Assembly (NCBI RefSeq): GCF_003721435.2
Contig: NZ_CP054585.1
Coordinates: 682,001 to 746,000, forward strand
Direction: 5' to 3'
DNA from: Halorubrum sp. CBA1229
GTDB lineage: Archaea > Halobacteriota > Halobacteria > Halobacteriales > Haloferacaceae
DNA length: 64,000 nucleotides
The notes beneath the pieces are model-generated. The model searched no databases. It was not told where the DNA came from and saw nothing but the letters and a program-made list of their open reading frames with translations. The position numbers and the translations under genes are program-made. Shown here in pieces: positions 22,120 to 28,822 of the stretch (position 1 is its first letter; each line of letters starts with the position of its first letter).

Positions 22120-22974
22120 ATGACCGATCCCGCCGAGTCGCCGGTCGATCCGGACCTCGAGGCCGACACCGACGCCGACCGCCACGAGTACGACCCCGAC
22201 GCCGACCACGCCTTCCCCGACGGCCGCCTCAACGAGGTGCTCGACCGGATCGCGTCGGACGCCGAGATCACCGCGTACCTGGAGGCGCAGAACGTCAATC
22301 CCGTCGACCGGAAGGGGTACAACGACCACGGCGCGAAACACGTCGAGATCGTCCGGGACCGCGCGCTCCGGCTGTACGACCTGCTAAAGGCGGGCGGCGT
22401 CGAGTTCAACGGGGCCCGCCAGCAGGGGCTCGACGAGGCCGACGAGCCGGTGATCATCGCGCTCGCGGCGACCCTCCACGACATCGGCCACGTCGTCCAC
22501 CGCCACGACCACCCGTACTACTCGATCCCGCTCGCCGCCGACCTGCTCGACGAGCTCCTCCCCTCCTTCTACGGCGTCCCCGAGCAGGTGCGCGTGAAGG
22601 CGGAGGTGCTCCACGCCATCCTCTGTCACCACACCGAGGAGCAGCCGCTGACGCTGGAGGCCGGCGTCGTCCGGATCGCCGACGGCCTCGACATGGAACG
22701 CGGGCGCTCGCGGGTCCCCTACGAGGAGGGCGGTCGCGGAATAAACACCGTCTCCTCGCAGGCGATCGAACGCGTCTCGCTGCGGGAGGGCGAGACGACC
22801 CCCGTGCAGGTCGTGATCCGGATGAACAACGCCGCGGGCGTCTACCAAGTGGACTCCCTGCTGAAGGCGAAGATGGAGGAGTCGCTGCTGGAAGACCGGA
22901 TCCAGACGATCGCGATCAACACCCACAGCGACGAGGACGGGACGACGTCGATCGTCGACCGGATCGAGCTGTAG
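22120..22974 (+). CDS. HD-domain metal-dependent phosphohydrolase
   Basis: 284 residues. The HD-type metal site is visible: NDHGAKHVEIVRDRALRLYDLL (first histidine), ATLHDIGHVVHRHDHPYYS (HD pair), ILCHHTEEQPL and the later aspartate in RIADGLDMERGRSRVPYE. The C-terminal part (GINTVSSQAIERVSLREGE...) is typical of archaeal HD proteins annotated as phosphohydrolases. The first about 45 residues are very acidic. The ATG at 22120 is 28 bases from a TATA box. Substrate (nucleotide or cyclic nucleotide) is unknown. Confidence 0.88.
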   Translation: MTDPAESPVDPDLEADTDADRHEYDPDADHAFPDGRLNEVLDRIASDAEITAYLEAQNVNPVDRKGYNDHGAKHVEIVRDRALRLYDLLKAGGVEFNGARQQGLDEADEPVIIALAATLHDIGHVVHRHDHPYYSIPLAADLLDELLPSFYGVPEQVRVKAEVLHAILCHHTEEQPLTLEAGVVRIADGLDMERGRSRVPYEEGGRGINTVSSQAIERVSLREGETTPVQVVIRMNNAAGVYQVDSLLKAKMEESLLEDRIQTIAINTHSDEDGTTSIVDRIEL

Positions 22975-23029: not shown

Positions 23030-24424
23030 TCAGGGCCCGCGGAGCGTCTCGCCCGCCCCGTCGAGGCGCGGGTCGCGATCGGACGCGGCCGTCACCGACA
23101 CCGTCGTCGTCTCGATCAGGTCGGTCGGAGAGAGCCCGCCGGAGAGCTGGCTCCCGTCGGCGGTCCCGCCGCCGAGGATCGGGGCGAACCGGTACCCGTT
23201 CCGCCGGGTCCCCACCGCCTCCGTCCCCGGCTGGTTGACGACGAGCCGCCCGGGACGGAGCCGCTCGGCGGCCCGCCGCACGCGCCCGTGACGGGTCGTG
23301 TGGACCGCGGCCGCGTGCGGCCCGCCCAGTTCGGCGGCGAGCCGCAGACACGCGCCGAACCCCTCGCGGTCGTGAACCGCGACGGCCGGGATCCCGGGGA
23401 GCGTCGCCAGCGGGTCGTCCTCCCCGTCGAACTCGTCGGCGATCACGAACGCCGCCCGTCCCGCCGCCGGGGGGAGGTCGAGCTCGGCGGCGAACCACCG
23501 GGGCGAGTTGCCGACGATCCGGTCCGGGGGATCCCCCCCGGCGTCGAGCAGGTCGCGGAGCCGCCCGCGCTCGGCCGCGTCGAGGACGTAGCCCCCCTCG
23601 TCCTCCAGCCCGGCGACCAGCTCGTCGACGGCGGCCGTCGGGATCGCGACGGCGGCGTCGGCCGCGGGGTGCGCGCCGAAGTCGTACGTCGCGCCGACCG
23701 CGACGCGGGGCGCGACGGCCGACGGGTCGGCGTCCGCGTCGGCGACGGCGACGAGGCCGTCGGCGCTCGCGCACGCGTTGGGCGTCCCGCAGCGCTGGCC
23801 GGCGGCGACCGTCGCCTCGGAGCCGGCGGCGACGACGCGGTCGACGCGCTCGAACAGCGAGTCGGTCTGCGGCTTCGAGGCGGGCGCGGGGAGCGTCGCG
23901 ACCGCGTCCGGCGGGGCGCCCGCGTCGTCGAGCGCCCGGCGGATCCGCTCGACGACGACGTCGCAGGTCTCGACCGCCGACGGCGACGGCGCGAGGACGA
24001 TCGCGTTCCGGCCGGCGAGGGCGTACAGCGAGACGGCCGCGGGGACGACGACCGGGTGCGTCGCCGGCACCGCCGCCCCGACGACCCCGACCGGGTGCGC
24101 GACGGTCAGCGCGCCGGCGGAATCGTCTCGGTCGACCGCCCCGACGGTCGCCGCCTCCCGCGACGCCGCGAGCGAGCCGTCGAGCGCGGTCGCGACCTTC
24201 TCCGCCTTGCTCCCCGGATGTCCGCGTCCCGTCTCGGTCGCGCCCGCGAGCGCGAGCCGGGCGATCGCCTCGCGCCCGCGCAGCGCCGCTCCCACCGCGT
24301 CGACGATCCGGGCGGTCGCGTTCGCGTCCCGCTCGGCCAGCCGCGACCCGGCCGCGCGGGCGCGCTCGACCGTCGCCGCGATCTCGTCCCGCTCGTCCGT
24401 CCCCGTCGCCGTGCCCCGCTCCAT
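23030..24424 (-). CDS. CoA-acylating-type aldehyde dehydrogenase homologue lacking the catalytic cysteine
   Basis: 464 residues from the ATG at 24424 (an ATG at 24451 is also possible). The layout follows the acetaldehyde-CoA dehydrogenase branch (EutE, AdhE N-terminal half): VAHPVGVVGAAVPATHPVVVPAAVSLYALAGRNAIVLAPSP, a cofactor-binding region, and a C-terminal LVVNQPGTEAVGTRRNGYRFAPILGGGT. At the expected active site, family members read T-[FY]-D-N-G-x-I-C-A-S-E-Q; here it is T-Y-D-F-G-A-H-P-A-A-D-A, so the nucleophilic cysteine is replaced by proline. The gene has an intact frame and normal composition, so it may be a pseudoenzyme with another role rather than decay. It is divergent from the STAND-type regulator with 117 bases between. 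Confidence 0.82.
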   Translation of the reverse strand: MERGTATGTDERDEIAATVERARAAGSRLAERDANATARIVDAVGAALRGREAIARLALAGATETGRGHPGSKAEKVATALDGSLAASREAATVGAVDRDDSAGALTVAHPVGVVGAAVPATHPVVVPAAVSLYALAGRNAIVLAPSPSAVETCDVVVERIRRALDDAGAPPDAVATLPAPASKPQTDSLFERVDRVVAAGSEATVAAGQRCGTPNACASADGLVAVADADADPSAVAPRVAVGATYDFGAHPAADAAVAIPTAAVDELVAGLEDEGGYVLDAAERGRLRDLLDAGGDPPDRIVGNSPRWFAAELDLPPAAGRAAFVIADEFDGEDDPLATLPGIPAVAVHDREGFGACLRLAAELGGPHAAAVHTTRHGRVRRAAERLRPGRLVVNQPGTEAVGTRRNGYRFAPILGGGTADGSQLSGGLSPTDLIETTTVSVTAASDRDPRLDGAGETLRGP

Positions 24425-24508
24425 ACGACGCCGTGTCTCGCCCGGCTTCATATTCTCACCCGGTGACACAGTGTGCCGGCCCGCGACGGGAAGTGTGATC
24501 GAGGAAAC

Positions 24509-24516
24509 AGTTATTC
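24509..24516 (+). promoter_or_regulatory. TATA-like element of the STAND-type gene
   Basis: AGTTATTC centred about 29 bases before the ATG at 24542, in the 117-base divergent interval shared with the aldehyde dehydrogenase homologue. No equally good box was seen for the minus-strand gene. Confidence 0.4.
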
Positions 24517-24541
24517 CGGTGGACCGCAACGACGGGGACGC

Positions 24542-27500
24542 ATGGCGGGGGCGTCAGAACTCGTCGACGTCGTCGAACGCCGGCTCGACTTCCTCGAACG
24601 GCTCCTCGAGGACCCGCTTCGGAAACACGAACTGGTCGACGAGCTCGGCCACTCGCGCTCGACGGTCAACCGGGCGATCGACGAGCTGGAGGCCGCCGGG
24701 CTCGTCGCCGCCGCGACCGACGGCTACCGGGCCACGCTGACCGGCCGGCTGCTCGCCCGCGGGTACCGCCGGTTCCTCACCGTCGCGGACGACGTCGACG
24801 CCGCGAGCGAGGCGCTCGCCCCGCTCGGCCCCGACGCGTCGATCGAGGCGGTCGCGCTGCGGGACGCGGACGTGTTCCGCGCCGCCGCCCCGGACCCGTA
24901 CAGGCCCTTAGAGCGGCTCGACGAGGCGCTGGCCGGCGCCGACGCGGTCGCCGCCGCGCTCCCGGCGCTCCCGTACCCGCGGCTGCTCGACCGCTGCCGC
25001 CGGGCGGCCGCCGGCGGGCGCGTCGACCTCGCGCTGTCCGACTCGACGTACCGGCACGCCAGGGACCGCTACGCCGACACCCTCGCCGGGCTCGCGCGTC
25101 GCGACGCCGCCGTCTCGGTCGTCGACGAGGTCGACGTCGGCGTGCTCGTGGCCGACGACGCCGCGCTCCTGCTGGTGTTCGACGGTGACGGGCGCGTCCA
25201 CGGGGTGATCGAATCGACGGACTCCGCAGCGGTCGCGTGGGCCCGCGACCGGGTCGACCGGCTCGCCGCCGCCGGGCGCGACGTCGGCGAGGAGCTCGCG
25301 GCGATGGAGGCCGTTCGCGACGACTCCGCCGGCGAGGCCGGCGCCTTCGACGGTCGGTTCGGGTCGACCGACGACGGGGGGGACGCGCTCGGCGACCAGG
25401 GGTTCGCGACGCTCGACGACGACCTGCTTGACCGCGAGCCGGACCCGACCGCGCCGCTGCGCGCGACGCCGTCGTTCGCGGAGGTCGACGCCGGCTACGC
25501 GCTCGACAGGACGGCGCCCCGCGACGGGGAGCGGCGGTCGGTCGCCGACGAGCTGATCGAGGGGCTCGCAGCGGGCGAGGACCGCGCCCTCGTCGGCCCG
25601 CCCGGAAGCGGGAAGAGCACGGTCTGCCGGCTCGCGGCCGTGCGCTGGTACCGGTCCGGACGGGGGCCCGTGCTGTACCGCGACGGCGACGGCGGGGAGG
25701 CGTTCACCGCGACCGAGCGGCTCCGCGAGCGGGCGGCGGCGGCCGACGGCCACGCCCTCGTCGTCGCCGAAGACGCGGTCGATCCCGGCGCCGCCGAGGC
25801 GGTGAGCGCCGCCCGGACGCTGGCGGAGCGCGACGACGTCTCCTTCCTGTTCGACGCCCGCGCGGCGGCGTACGACGACCCCGACTCGCTCCCGCTGAGC
25901 CCGGCCGACCTCGGCTACCGGCGGCGGATCGAGACGATTCGGATGCCGCGCCTCGACGAGCGCGAGGCCGAGCGCTTCGCCGAGCACGTGGCCGACCTCG
26001 TCGGCGCGCCGCCGGCTGCCGACCCGGCCGCGCTGCTGGACGGGATCCGCGGGTCGGGTCCCGGTCCGTCGGTCCTCGACGGGGCAGAGGACACCGGGAC
26101 CGGAACCGCGGCGGCGGAGGCGGACCGTCCCGGCGAACTGCTCTGTCTCCTCCACCACCTCGTCCGGGCCGGCGACCGGGCGACCGGAGACGATGCAGTC
26201 CGGAGCGCGGGTCGGAGCGATGACTCCGGGAGAGGGGCCGACCCGGAGAGCGGATCCGGGCCGTCCGGCGTCGCCGAGACGGGGTTCGAGGCGTCCGTGG
26301 AGGCGGCGATCCGCGACCTCGTCGACCGCCCGCCGCCGACCGCGGACGTCGCCGTGCTGGTGAACCTGCTCAACGTCGCCGGCGTCCGGGAGGTGCGCGA
26401 GCTCGCGTACGCGCTCGTCGGCGACGGAGAGGGGGGGCGAGACGCGTCGCCCGAGGCGGTGCGCCGGGCGCTCGGAGGGCTGGAGGGCGCGGTGTTGGTG
26501 CCCGCTCACGGGGAGCCGGACCGGACCGTCCACGAGGAGTGGTCCGTGCTGTTCCTCGAACGGCTCCTCGACCGGGAGCCCGAGCCGGTGGTCGCGCGGC
26601 GGGTCGGCCGCGTCGCGACGCGGCTGCTCTCGCTCGCCGACGACCCGGCGCGCCGCTCGCGGGTCCGGCGCGCGGTCGGCGGCGACGCCCCCGCGATGGG
26701 TCGGATCGAGCGTAACCCGGAGGAGTGGGCGAGCGAGACGACGCGACGCCTGTACGGGGTCGGCCGGCGGTACCCGCGGCTCGCCGGGCTGTACGGGCGG
26801 GTCCGCTACTCGTGGATCGACCTCCCGGACGCCTGCCCGGCGGAGCTCCGCGACCGCGCCCCCGAGTGGGTCGCTCGGATGTACGTCGACGCCGGCGACC
26901 TCGACGGGGCGGTCGAGGCGCTCGACGCGTGGCGCCCGGCGGACGAGGGCGGCGAGGCGGAGCGCCAGCGCGGGCTCGGCGACGTGGCCCGCCGCCGGGG
27001 CGAGCACGACGCGGCGCGCGAGCGGTACGAGCGGGCGACCGAGCTGTTCGAGTCCGCCGGCGACCGGCGGGGGCTCGCGGCCGCGATCCGGGGGTGCGCG
27101 CAGGCGGCCCACTTCGCCGGCGACTACGAGGCGGCCTACGAGGACGCCTCGCAGGCGTACGCCGTCGCCGCCGCGATCGACGACCCGATCGCGACCGCGA
27201 AGGCGCTCATGGACGTCGGCAACGCGCTCGACGCCCTTGACGCGACCGACGCGGTGGTGGACCACTACCGCGTCGCCGGCGACCTCTTCCGGGCGTACGA
27301 CGACCTCCACGGCGAGGCGAACGTGCGGGCGAACCTCGCGGTCGCCCGCCGCCGGCGCGGCGAGCTGACGGCCGCGGAGCGGGCGGCCGAGCGCGCCCTC
27401 GACGGCTACCGGACCGTCGGGGACGAGCACCGCGAGGCGGTCGTCCTCCTGAACCTCGGCGCGATCGCGGAGCAGCGCGGGGAAGTGGACGAGGCGGTGG

Positions 27501-28216
27501 CCCGCGCCCGGGAGGCCCGCGACGTCGCCGAGCGCGTCGGCGCCGACCTCTACCGCGCGCTCGCCGTGAGCAACCTCGGGTCGGCGGCGCAGCTCGCCGG
27601 CGACCTCGACCGCGCGGAGCGGCTCCTCCGCGACGCGCTCGGCTCCTTCGAGGCGCTCGACGCCGACGACCGGTGCGCGATGGCCGCGGCGACGCTCGCC
27701 GACGTCGCCGTCGATCGCGGCGACCTCGAGGCCGCCGAGCGGTGGATCGACCGGGCCGAGGTGGCGCTCGGCGACCGAGCCAATCCGCGCCGTCGGGCGA
27801 TACTGGACCGGGTCCGGGGCGCCGTCGCGCTCCGGCGCGGCGACCCGGAAGCTGCCGAGCGCGCCGTCGCGGACGCGATAGAGCGGGCCCGAGAGGGCGG
27901 GTTCACCGACGTCGAGGCCCGGGCGCTCGCCGACTTCGGGGCGGTCGCGGCCGAGCGCGGGGACGCGGCGGCGGCCGCCGACCGCCTGACCGAGGCGATC
28001 GACCTGGCCCGCGAGGTCGAGTGTGCGCGCGCGCTCGCCGAGGCGGCCGGCGGGATGGCGGACCTGCTGTCGGACCGCGACGCGCGCGCACTCGACCCGA
28101 CCGCGCCCGACCCGGTCCCCGAGGGTTCGGCCGCCGACCCGACGGCGTACCGCGAGCTTGCCGACCGGTGGCGCGCCGACGGGGACGGGGCCGCCGTCGA
28201 GTTCGGAGAGGGGTAG
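24542..28216 (+). CDS. Large HTH/FilR1-like/P-loop NTPase/TPR fusion protein (STAND-type regulator)
   Basis: 1224 residues with four parts. (1) Residues about 1-65: winged helix, LVDELGHSRSTVNRAIDEL. (2) About 65-265: a region like the effector domain of haloarchaeal FilR1-type regulators (PLERLDEALAGADAVAAALP; then VLVADDAALLLVFDGDGRVH and ESTDSAAVAWARDRVDRL). (3) A P-loop ATPase: Walker A GPPGSGKST at 352-360, Walker B VVAED at 407-411, then helical and wing-like segments to about 780. (4) About 781-1190: nine or ten TPR units, e.g. ALMDVGNALDALDATDAVVD and VLLNLGAIAEQRGEVDEAVA. HTH + STAND NTPase + TPR resembles MalT-type ligand-gated activators, but with the DNA-binding domain at the N-terminus. 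Target and ligand are unknown; the divergent aldehyde dehydrogenase homologue is the obvious candidate target. Confidence 0.85.
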   Translation: MAGASELVDVVERRLDFLERLLEDPLRKHELVDELGHSRSTVNRAIDELEAAGLVAAATDGYRATLTGRLLARGYRRFLTVADDVDAASEALAPLGPDASIEAVALRDADVFRAAAPDPYRPLERLDEALAGADAVAAALPALPYPRLLDRCRRAAAGGRVDLALSDSTYRHARDRYADTLAGLARRDAAVSVVDEVDVGVLVADDAALLLVFDGDGRVHGVIESTDSAAVAWARDRVDRLAAAGRDVGEELAAMEAVRDDSAGEAGAFDGRFGSTDDGGDALGDQGFATLDDDLLDREPDPTAPLRATPSFAEVDAGYALDRTAPRDGERRSVADELIEGLAAGEDRALVGPPGSGKSTVCRLAAVRWYRSGRGPVLYRDGDGGEAFTATERLRERAAAADGHALVVAEDAVDPGAAEAVSAARTLAERDDVSFLFDARAAAYDDPDSLPLSPADLGYRRRIETIRMPRLDEREAERFAEHVADLVGAPPAADPAALLDGIRGSGPGPSVLDGAEDTGTGTAAAEADRPGELLCLLHHLVRAGDRATGDDAVRSAGRSDDSGRGADPESGSGPSGVAETGFEASVEAAIRDLVDRPPPTADVAVLVNLLNVAGVREVRELAYALVGDGEGGRDASPEAVRRALGGLEGAVLVPAHGEPDRTVHEEWSVLFLERLLDREPEPVVARRVGRVATRLLSLADDPARRSRVRRAVGGDAPAMGRIERNPEEWASETTRRLYGVGRRYPRLAGLYGRVRYSWIDLPDACPAELRDRAPEWVARMYVDAGDLDGAVEALDAWRPADEGGEAERQRGLGDVARRRGEHDAARERYERATELFESAGDRRGLAAAIRGCAQAAHFAGDYEAAYEDASQAYAVAAAIDDPIATAKALMDVGNALDALDATDAVVDHYRVAGDLFRAYDDLHGEANVRANLAVARRRRGELTAAERAAERALDGYRTVGDEHREAVVLLNLGAIAEQRGEVDEAVARAREARDVAERVGADLYRALAVSNLGSAAQLAGDLDRAERLLRDALGSFEALDADDRCAMAAATLADVAVDRGDLEAAERWIDRAEVALGDRANPRRRAILDRVRGAVALRRGDPEAAERAVADAIERAREGGFTDVEARALADFGAVAAERGDAAAAADRLTEAIDLAREVECARALAEAAGGMADLLSDRDARALDPTAPDPVPEGSAADPTAYRELADRWRADGDGAAVEFGEG

Positions 28217-28315: not shown

Positions 28316-28822
28316 ATGACCGACGCCGACGCGCTCGCGGACCTGCGGACCGGCGCCGACTACCAGTTCGGCGCCGGCGCGGGCCGCGCCCTCTTCCCCC
28401 CCGACGAGCCGCTGACCCTCCGGCGATCGAGCGGCGGCCGCCCGCGACAGGTGATCGTCGGCGACGTCGACGACACGCCCGGCAGCTCCGAGGGAGACCG
28501 CCTCGTCTCGTACGGCACCGACGGGCGGTTCACGCTCGGCGTCGCCGGCGGCCGGCGGGTGCGCGAGGCGTTCGACCCGCCGCGGCACCGGGTCGTCGTC
28601 GGCGAGGAGAGCGAGCCGTTCGTGCGCGAGGGGCGAAACGCCTTCGCGAAGTTCGTGACCGCGGCCGACGACGGGATTCGCCCCGGCGACGAGGTGCTCG
28701 TCGTCGATGAGACGGACGCGCTGTTCGCTGTCGGCCGCGCGGAGCTCTCCGGCGCGGAGGCCGAGGCGTTCGCGAGCGGCGTCGCCGTCAAGGTGCGGAA
28801 CGGGGTCGGCGACGCGGAGTAG
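28316..28822 (+). CDS. PUA-domain RNA-binding protein
   Basis: 168 residues. The C-terminal half is a PUA domain: RHRVVVGEESEPFVREGRNAFAKFVTAADDGIRPGDEVLVVDETDALFAVGRAELS, with the characteristic PGDEVxVVD turn. The N-terminal half (DYQFGAGAGRALFPPDEPLTLRRSSGGRPRQV) resembles the C-terminal accessory domains of archaeosine tRNA-guanine transglycosylases. It has no catalytic domain, so a role as RNA-binding partner in tRNA or rRNA modification is inferred from the fold. It lies between the STAND-type gene and the riboflavin-pathway gene, same direction. Confidence 0.85.
   Translation: MTDADALADLRTGADYQFGAGAGRALFPPDEPLTLRRSSGGRPRQVIVGDVDDTPGSSEGDRLVSYGTDGRFTLGVAGGRRVREAFDPPRHRVVVGEESEPFVREGRNAFAKFVTAADDGIRPGDEVLVVDETDALFAVGRAELSGAEAEAFASGVAVKVRNGVGDAE

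Follow-up and report, generated by a model that had tools for sequence, protein, structure and literature searches.

What is kept, and for what use, when the catalytic cysteine of an aldehyde dehydrogenase (ALDH) homologue has given way to proline? The question is raised by a gene in a 64,000-nt stretch of the Halorubrum sp. CBA1229 genome (contig NZ_CP054585.1, positions 682,001 to 746,000; referred to below as the window). The initial annotation, made from the letters of the window alone, took the product to be a maintained pseudoenzyme and possibly a partner of the regulator encoded next to it. The gene is as follows.

23030..24424, minus strand: predicted ALDH-fold pseudoenzyme (P0001), 464 aa, assigned from the open frame, Pfam, NCBIfam and an AF2 model

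The ORF runs through 464 codons with zero stops and zero frameshifts, in agreement with the annotation's statement that the frame has no decay. Against Pfam Aldedh the product scores 48 bits. Its best curated models are SauS, then the AdhE and EutE types; the score with the NCBIfam SauS model NF047625, 231 bits, is far under the 600-bit equivalog cut-off, and the haloarchaeal relative L110 reaches 671 bits on the same model. The closest solved structure identified by phmmer is SucD (8cei). An AF2 model made with 21 close orthologues was poor (pLDDT 52.8) and was superseded by a model built on 38 diverse rows (pLDDT 88.8), for which the top match in PDB was again SucD 8cei, with TM 0.87/0.90 over 434 columns. 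As modelled, the product has the full-length fold of the CoA-acylating aldehyde dehydrogenases.

The state of the active site was read at four codons.

23666..23668, minus strand: Pro253 codon, aligned with the catalytic Cys (Pro in 25/25 loci versus Cys in 23/23 distant relatives)
24056..24058, minus strand: His123 codon, aligned with the oxyanion Asn (His in all orthologues)
23399..23401, minus strand: Leu342 codon, in place of the conserved Glu (E357 of Cphy1178; family alignment)
23315..23317, minus strand: His370 codon, the retained Cys-activating His (H387 of Cphy1178; family alignment)

That proline occupies the site of the catalytic cysteine, as the annotation had claimed, follows from two alignments. 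In the ungapped alignment to haloarchaeal relatives P253 stands opposite the catalytic Cys (TYDFGAHPAADA versus, e.g., TFDYATSCSSDN), and in the phmmer alignment to SucD 8cei it stands opposite the nucleophilic Cys (GATYDFGAHPAAD versus GRKYDNGIICSSE), YDNGIICSSE of SucD corresponding to YDFGAHPAAD. The annotation had called the rest of the protein intact; this part did not survive the comparison. In a structural study of an acylating ALDH the catalytic Cys acts as the nucleophile, N138 forms the oxyanion site, E357 activates CoA and H387 activates the Cys (PMC4762007); the number C269 for the catalytic Cys of Cphy1178 comes from the title of the PDB entry for its C269A mutant. C269, N138, E357 and H387 correspond to P253, H123, L342 and H370 (equivalences read via the SucD alignment and family motifs, not by direct alignment to Cphy1178); thus three of the four residues expected of a CoA-acylating enzyme (Cys, oxyanion Asn and CoA-activating Glu) are lost and only the Cys-activating His is kept. 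Position 342 is Leu in 15/15 aligned orthologues versus Glu in 23/23 relatives, and position 370 is His in both sets (15/15 and 23/23). In addition, the GN of the GxGN motif has become DG222-223. The likely general-base position carries no Glu, being Ala219 or Thr in the clade and Val in the relatives; here the equivalence to A235 of Cphy1178 is by motif only.

The oxyanion position is Asn in 20/23 relatives and His in 3/23, and these three retain the Cys. They are the SauS-like proteins L114, L133 and L134 (from genomes G073, G268 and G173), with THP for TNP; the Asn is thus already His in relatives that are apparently active. Because the nucleophilic Cys is Pro, an acyl-thioester could not form by the usual route, and canonical catalysis by this product is, on its residues, very unlikely. 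The pseudoenzyme reading is stronger than the annotation had it, since catalytic positions beyond the Cys are also replaced.

Another cysteine might serve instead, an alternative that the annotation had itself raised. The product would then be a working acylating ALDH with Cys212, in GQRCGTPN, as its nucleophile, and Cys212 is indeed invariant among the orthologues. It aligns, however, to Ser in 20/23 of the relatives that keep the catalytic Cys, and one relative with Cys at position 212 also retains the normal nucleophile. In the AF2 model Cys212 comes after helix 203-211 and before strand 216-220, which leads to the site; it lies where that strand begins, at a distance from the catalytic loop. 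The Glu and Asn required for acylating chemistry are also absent. We therefore rejected Cys212, whose role as nucleophile is extremely improbable.

Orthologues were found in 23 of the 52 Halorubrum genomes searched, at 58-71% identity; their hosts include H. kocurii, H. coriense, H. ezzemoulense, H. californiense and H. trapanicum. Beyond Halorubrum there are solely distant relatives, 23 proteins from other haloarchaeal genera with 26-35% identity. In the tree the Halorubrum copies make one group (100/100 support) on a long stem (1.78 changes per site). The annotation had suggested looking for the same substitution in other Halorubrum; no orthologue had Cys at the site, and position 253 was Pro in 25/25 alignable orthologous loci (including two second records of the same genomes), and positions 252 and 123 were His in all 25. 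Since every alignable Halorubrum copy has Pro, P253 is not confined to one strain. The codon is CCC in all 25, so comparing codons at this position is uninformative. A family-alignment search of this genome for an active EutE/SauS-type copy returned the 23030-24424 product as its sole match. One orthologue, L024 (G010), has several tandem 8-residue units (ETKPDGRN) within its variable acidic N-terminal extension; such an extension is present in one orthologue clade, and the window copy is without it.

If the enzyme is dead, is the gene decaying? Pairwise dN/dS against the window copy is ∼0.45, below 1, and the dap and HD neighbours have lower values of 0.16-0.22 (dapA 0.16, HD 0.19), all of these being rough as absolute values because GC3 is extreme (97%). 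Conservation within the protein was counted at the former catalytic loop.

23651..23689, minus strand: former catalytic loop T246-A258 (TYDFGAHPAADAA), defined by invariance count

In this loop 11/13 residues are invariant versus 154/464 overall (hypergeometric p 1.7e-4), and H252, together with H123 and H370, never varies among the aligned orthologues that are intact. Purifying selection acts on the gene, and few stretches of it are as conserved as the dead loop.

A decaying remnant of a once useful enzyme, heading for loss, would account for the faster evolution of the ALDH relative to its dap and HD neighbours, for its repeated absence and for the damaged copies: a relic in G036, one in G038 with a disrupted C-terminus, and one in G033 that is rearranged. 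Against decay, the frame is open in at least 21 species, and the 154 invariant residues include nearly the whole ex-catalytic loop. Moreover, the Cys was lost before the Halorubrum copies diverged from one another, and the gene has therefore been retained long past inactivation. We regard decay as improbable. As to the copy in G033, a metagenome-assembled genome (L012 / L036), its frame is broken and an extra copy of the segment of residues ∼134-236 is inserted, which may be a real rearrangement or an assembly error.

With catalytic residues lost, the fold kept and purifying selection acting across species, the product is very probably a maintained pseudoenzyme derived from a CoA-acylating ALDH, in which loss of the nucleophilic Cys would make the acyl-thioester impossible and the Asn and the Glu are missing as well. 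On this central point the annotation is well supported: the losses are fixed genus-wide, the dN/dS ratio lies well under 1, and conservation of the dead loop is unusually high. Predicted structure plus conservation indicate that the protein has retained both the ALDH fold and a conserved pocket.

The same conservation could be read as the mark of a repurposed enzyme, in which the old pocket would host a different chemistry or a metal through the invariant H123, H252 and H370. The extreme conservation of the former catalytic loop agrees with this, as does the location of H387 (the equivalent of H370), which was reported within 2.5 A of the Cys position (PMC4762007). The H123 equivalent is, however, also His in three Cys-keeping relatives, so H123 need not signal new chemistry. 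Judged from these residues, repurposing seems distinctly unlikely, and we retain the maintained pseudoenzyme as the preferred reading.

What, then, would a maintained pseudoenzyme do? Its genomic setting consists of a divergent gene and two flanking genes.

24542..28216, plus strand: divergent regulator, 1224 aa, with HVO_A0261_N HTH, FilR1_middle, STAND-type NTPase and TPR (domain search)
22120..22974, plus strand: left flanking gene at the module edge, HD-type phosphohydrolase-like by eye, syntenic in all
28316..28822, plus strand: right flanking gene at the module edge, TGT_C2 + PUA (domains, synteny)

As the annotation had noted, 117 nt separate the starts of the two genes, the ATG of the ALDH lying at 24424 and that of the regulator at 24542. 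Its Walker A motif, GPPGSGKST at residue 352, is intact. Orthologues of the regulator are confined to the same 23 of 52 Halorubrum genomes as the ALDH, and in every genome read the two adjoin each other between the HD and PUA genes in strict synteny; some copies in the regulator alignment end at contig ends, which affects the TPR part. The dN values of the two genes are nearly equal (ALDH 0.247, regulator 0.244). Among the 29 genomes without the pair, the gap between HD and PUA genes is at most 205 bp in 16, the site is filled by some 1.4-1.5 kb of different sequence in nine (G001, G005, G007, G012, G013, G023, G030, G034 and G043), and the HD and PUA genes are not adjacent in four. A trace of joint loss is seen in G036, where a C-terminal ALDH fragment (L108, G036:C11:409771-410027) lies beside the PUA gene and the regulator is gone. 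In G017 the regulator is internally deleted (L092, 6479-7699), so that ∼300 aa from the N-terminus and a short stretch of the C-terminus are left; the ALDH is intact. Within the flanks examined, no similar regulator was found near the distant SauS-like genes.

On the marker tree the presence or absence of the module requires 7-8 changes; only four independent contrasts are well supported (sign test p 0.125), and for this reason the co-occurrence statistics alone are not significant. We also considered a defence system; a PADLOC search gave no match for the ALDH and only generic TPR and HTH matches for the regulator, and this reading was dropped.

Between the two genes lie elements that both could use.

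24425..24541, no strand: shared promoter region between the divergent genes, 117 nt, with conserved blocks in 22 genomes
24462..24479, no strand: imperfect palindrome, operator-like, GGTGACACAGTGTGCCGG, conserved in 22 orthologous intergenic regions

The blocks conserved in the 22 genomes are TATA-like, TTATTCTCA for the minus-strand gene and GAAACAGTTAT for the plus-strand gene. The palindrome has the genus consensus GTGA-ACACTGTGTCACC; across the 3.58-Mb genome there is one exact copy and one other site at 3 mismatches, and a search of the Halorubrum genomes for a palindrome regulon gave just scattered sites with 2-3 mismatches. We infer that the palindrome is the operator of the regulator. 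The 17-mer GTGAGAGACTGTGTCAC recurs outside this locus in several Halorubrum genomes (G004:C9:54322, G014:C76:515, G014:C79:19667, G017:C1:86424 and G042:C1:2866187) and is possibly part of a mobile element.

Taken together, comparative genomics suggests a two-gene module in which the ALDH probably shares its control with the divergent HTH-FilR1-STAND-TPR regulator. The putative partnership proposed by the annotation has circumstantial support (the same 23 genomes, one unit, a shared palindrome and an equal rate). By analogy, the pseudoenzyme would bind a small ligand in its old active-site or cofactor pocket and would bind or release the STAND/TPR regulator, thereby deciding if the latter forms oligomers and works on the palindrome that both genes share. 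A precedent for such a step is MalY, an enzyme-fold protein acting on the STAND activator MalT of E. coli. The partner role, the ligand and the direction of regulation are all inferred. To the reading as a whole, a maintained pseudoenzyme acting with the divergent regulator in a MalY-MalT-like manner, we give an even chance. Its more specific form, in which the dead acylating ALDH would be a dedicated ligand sensor of the STAND regulator, detecting acyl-CoA, NAD or an aldehyde in the old active site, is tentative and somewhat doubtful.

Several observations weigh against the joint action of pseudoenzyme and regulator. Linked genes go together in single deletions anyway, so that joint loss is favoured by the physical linkage of the ALDH and the regulator; in G017 the ALDH has outlived the deletion within the regulator; the neighbouring HD and dap genes are far more conserved, which makes the module dispensable and fast-evolving; and MalT-MalY is an analogy only. 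The pseudoenzyme could instead serve a purpose that has nothing to do with the regulator, such as that of a structural or regulatory subunit of one of the cell's catalytic ALDHs; the regulator would then only control its expression. The genome encodes four full-length classical ALDHs that are possible partners, and both ALDH16A1 and the second AldDH of GRM1 loci are considered scaffolds or regulators. These classical ALDHs, however, align weakly to the 23030-24424 product, an active paralogue of EutE/SauS type is absent from this genome as judged by the family-alignment search, and the strict pairing is with the regulator. We consider such a separate job unlikely and keep to the pseudoenzyme that would act with the divergent regulator.

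The product resembles the CoA-acylating ALDHs (SauS, SucD, the N-domain of AdhE and EutE/PduP) in fold, in full-length alignment with 24-35% identity, and in keeping the GS, RxxxNQ, NG and GxG positions and the Cys-activating His370. It differs from them in that the catalytic Cys, the oxyanion Asn, the CoA-activating Glu and the GN of GxGN are replaced and in scores far under the NCBIfam cut-offs.

Dead ALDHs as such are already known. In the second AldDH of GRM1 microcompartment loci the catalytic Cys is changed to Ser or Pro, and a scaffold or regulatory role was suggested (Axen et al. 2014, PMC4207490); ALDH16A1 is an ALDH pseudoenzyme without catalytic residues, thought to work via protein binding (PMC10650815). 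The GRM1 protein is bacterial, and its gene sits in a microcompartment locus next to that of an active AldDH, whereas the protein described here is archaeal, has no active homologue and is encoded next to a STAND regulator; ALDH16A1, unlike the Halorubrum product, is a human/animal protein of a different ALDH branch. No archaeal ALDH pseudoenzyme was found in the literature searched, in which subscription journals were thinly covered. ALDH pseudoenzymes are rare, and understanding of them is poor. The one in Halorubrum has a long history, occurs genus-wide and is linked to just one regulator; therefore a genetically usable Halorubrum strain could test directly the idea of a dead enzyme as a sensor.

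For the regulatory pair, the parallel is with E. coli. MalY is a PLP enzyme, and the HTH of MalT is at the C-terminus. Unlike in MalT, the HTH of the Halorubrum regulator is N-terminal and is followed by FilR1_middle, and its interaction with the ALDH product is putative. In E. coli the enzyme-fold protein MalY keeps MalT, a STAND/TPR transcription regulator, inactive (PMC10427625). With its N-terminal HTH plus FilR1_middle the Halorubrum regulator is like the archaeal regulators of the FilR1 / HVO_A0261 type; unlike most other FilR1-type matches in the genus, which are open frames of ∼260-320 aa, it is a fusion with a STAND NTPase and TPR that extends to 1224 aa.
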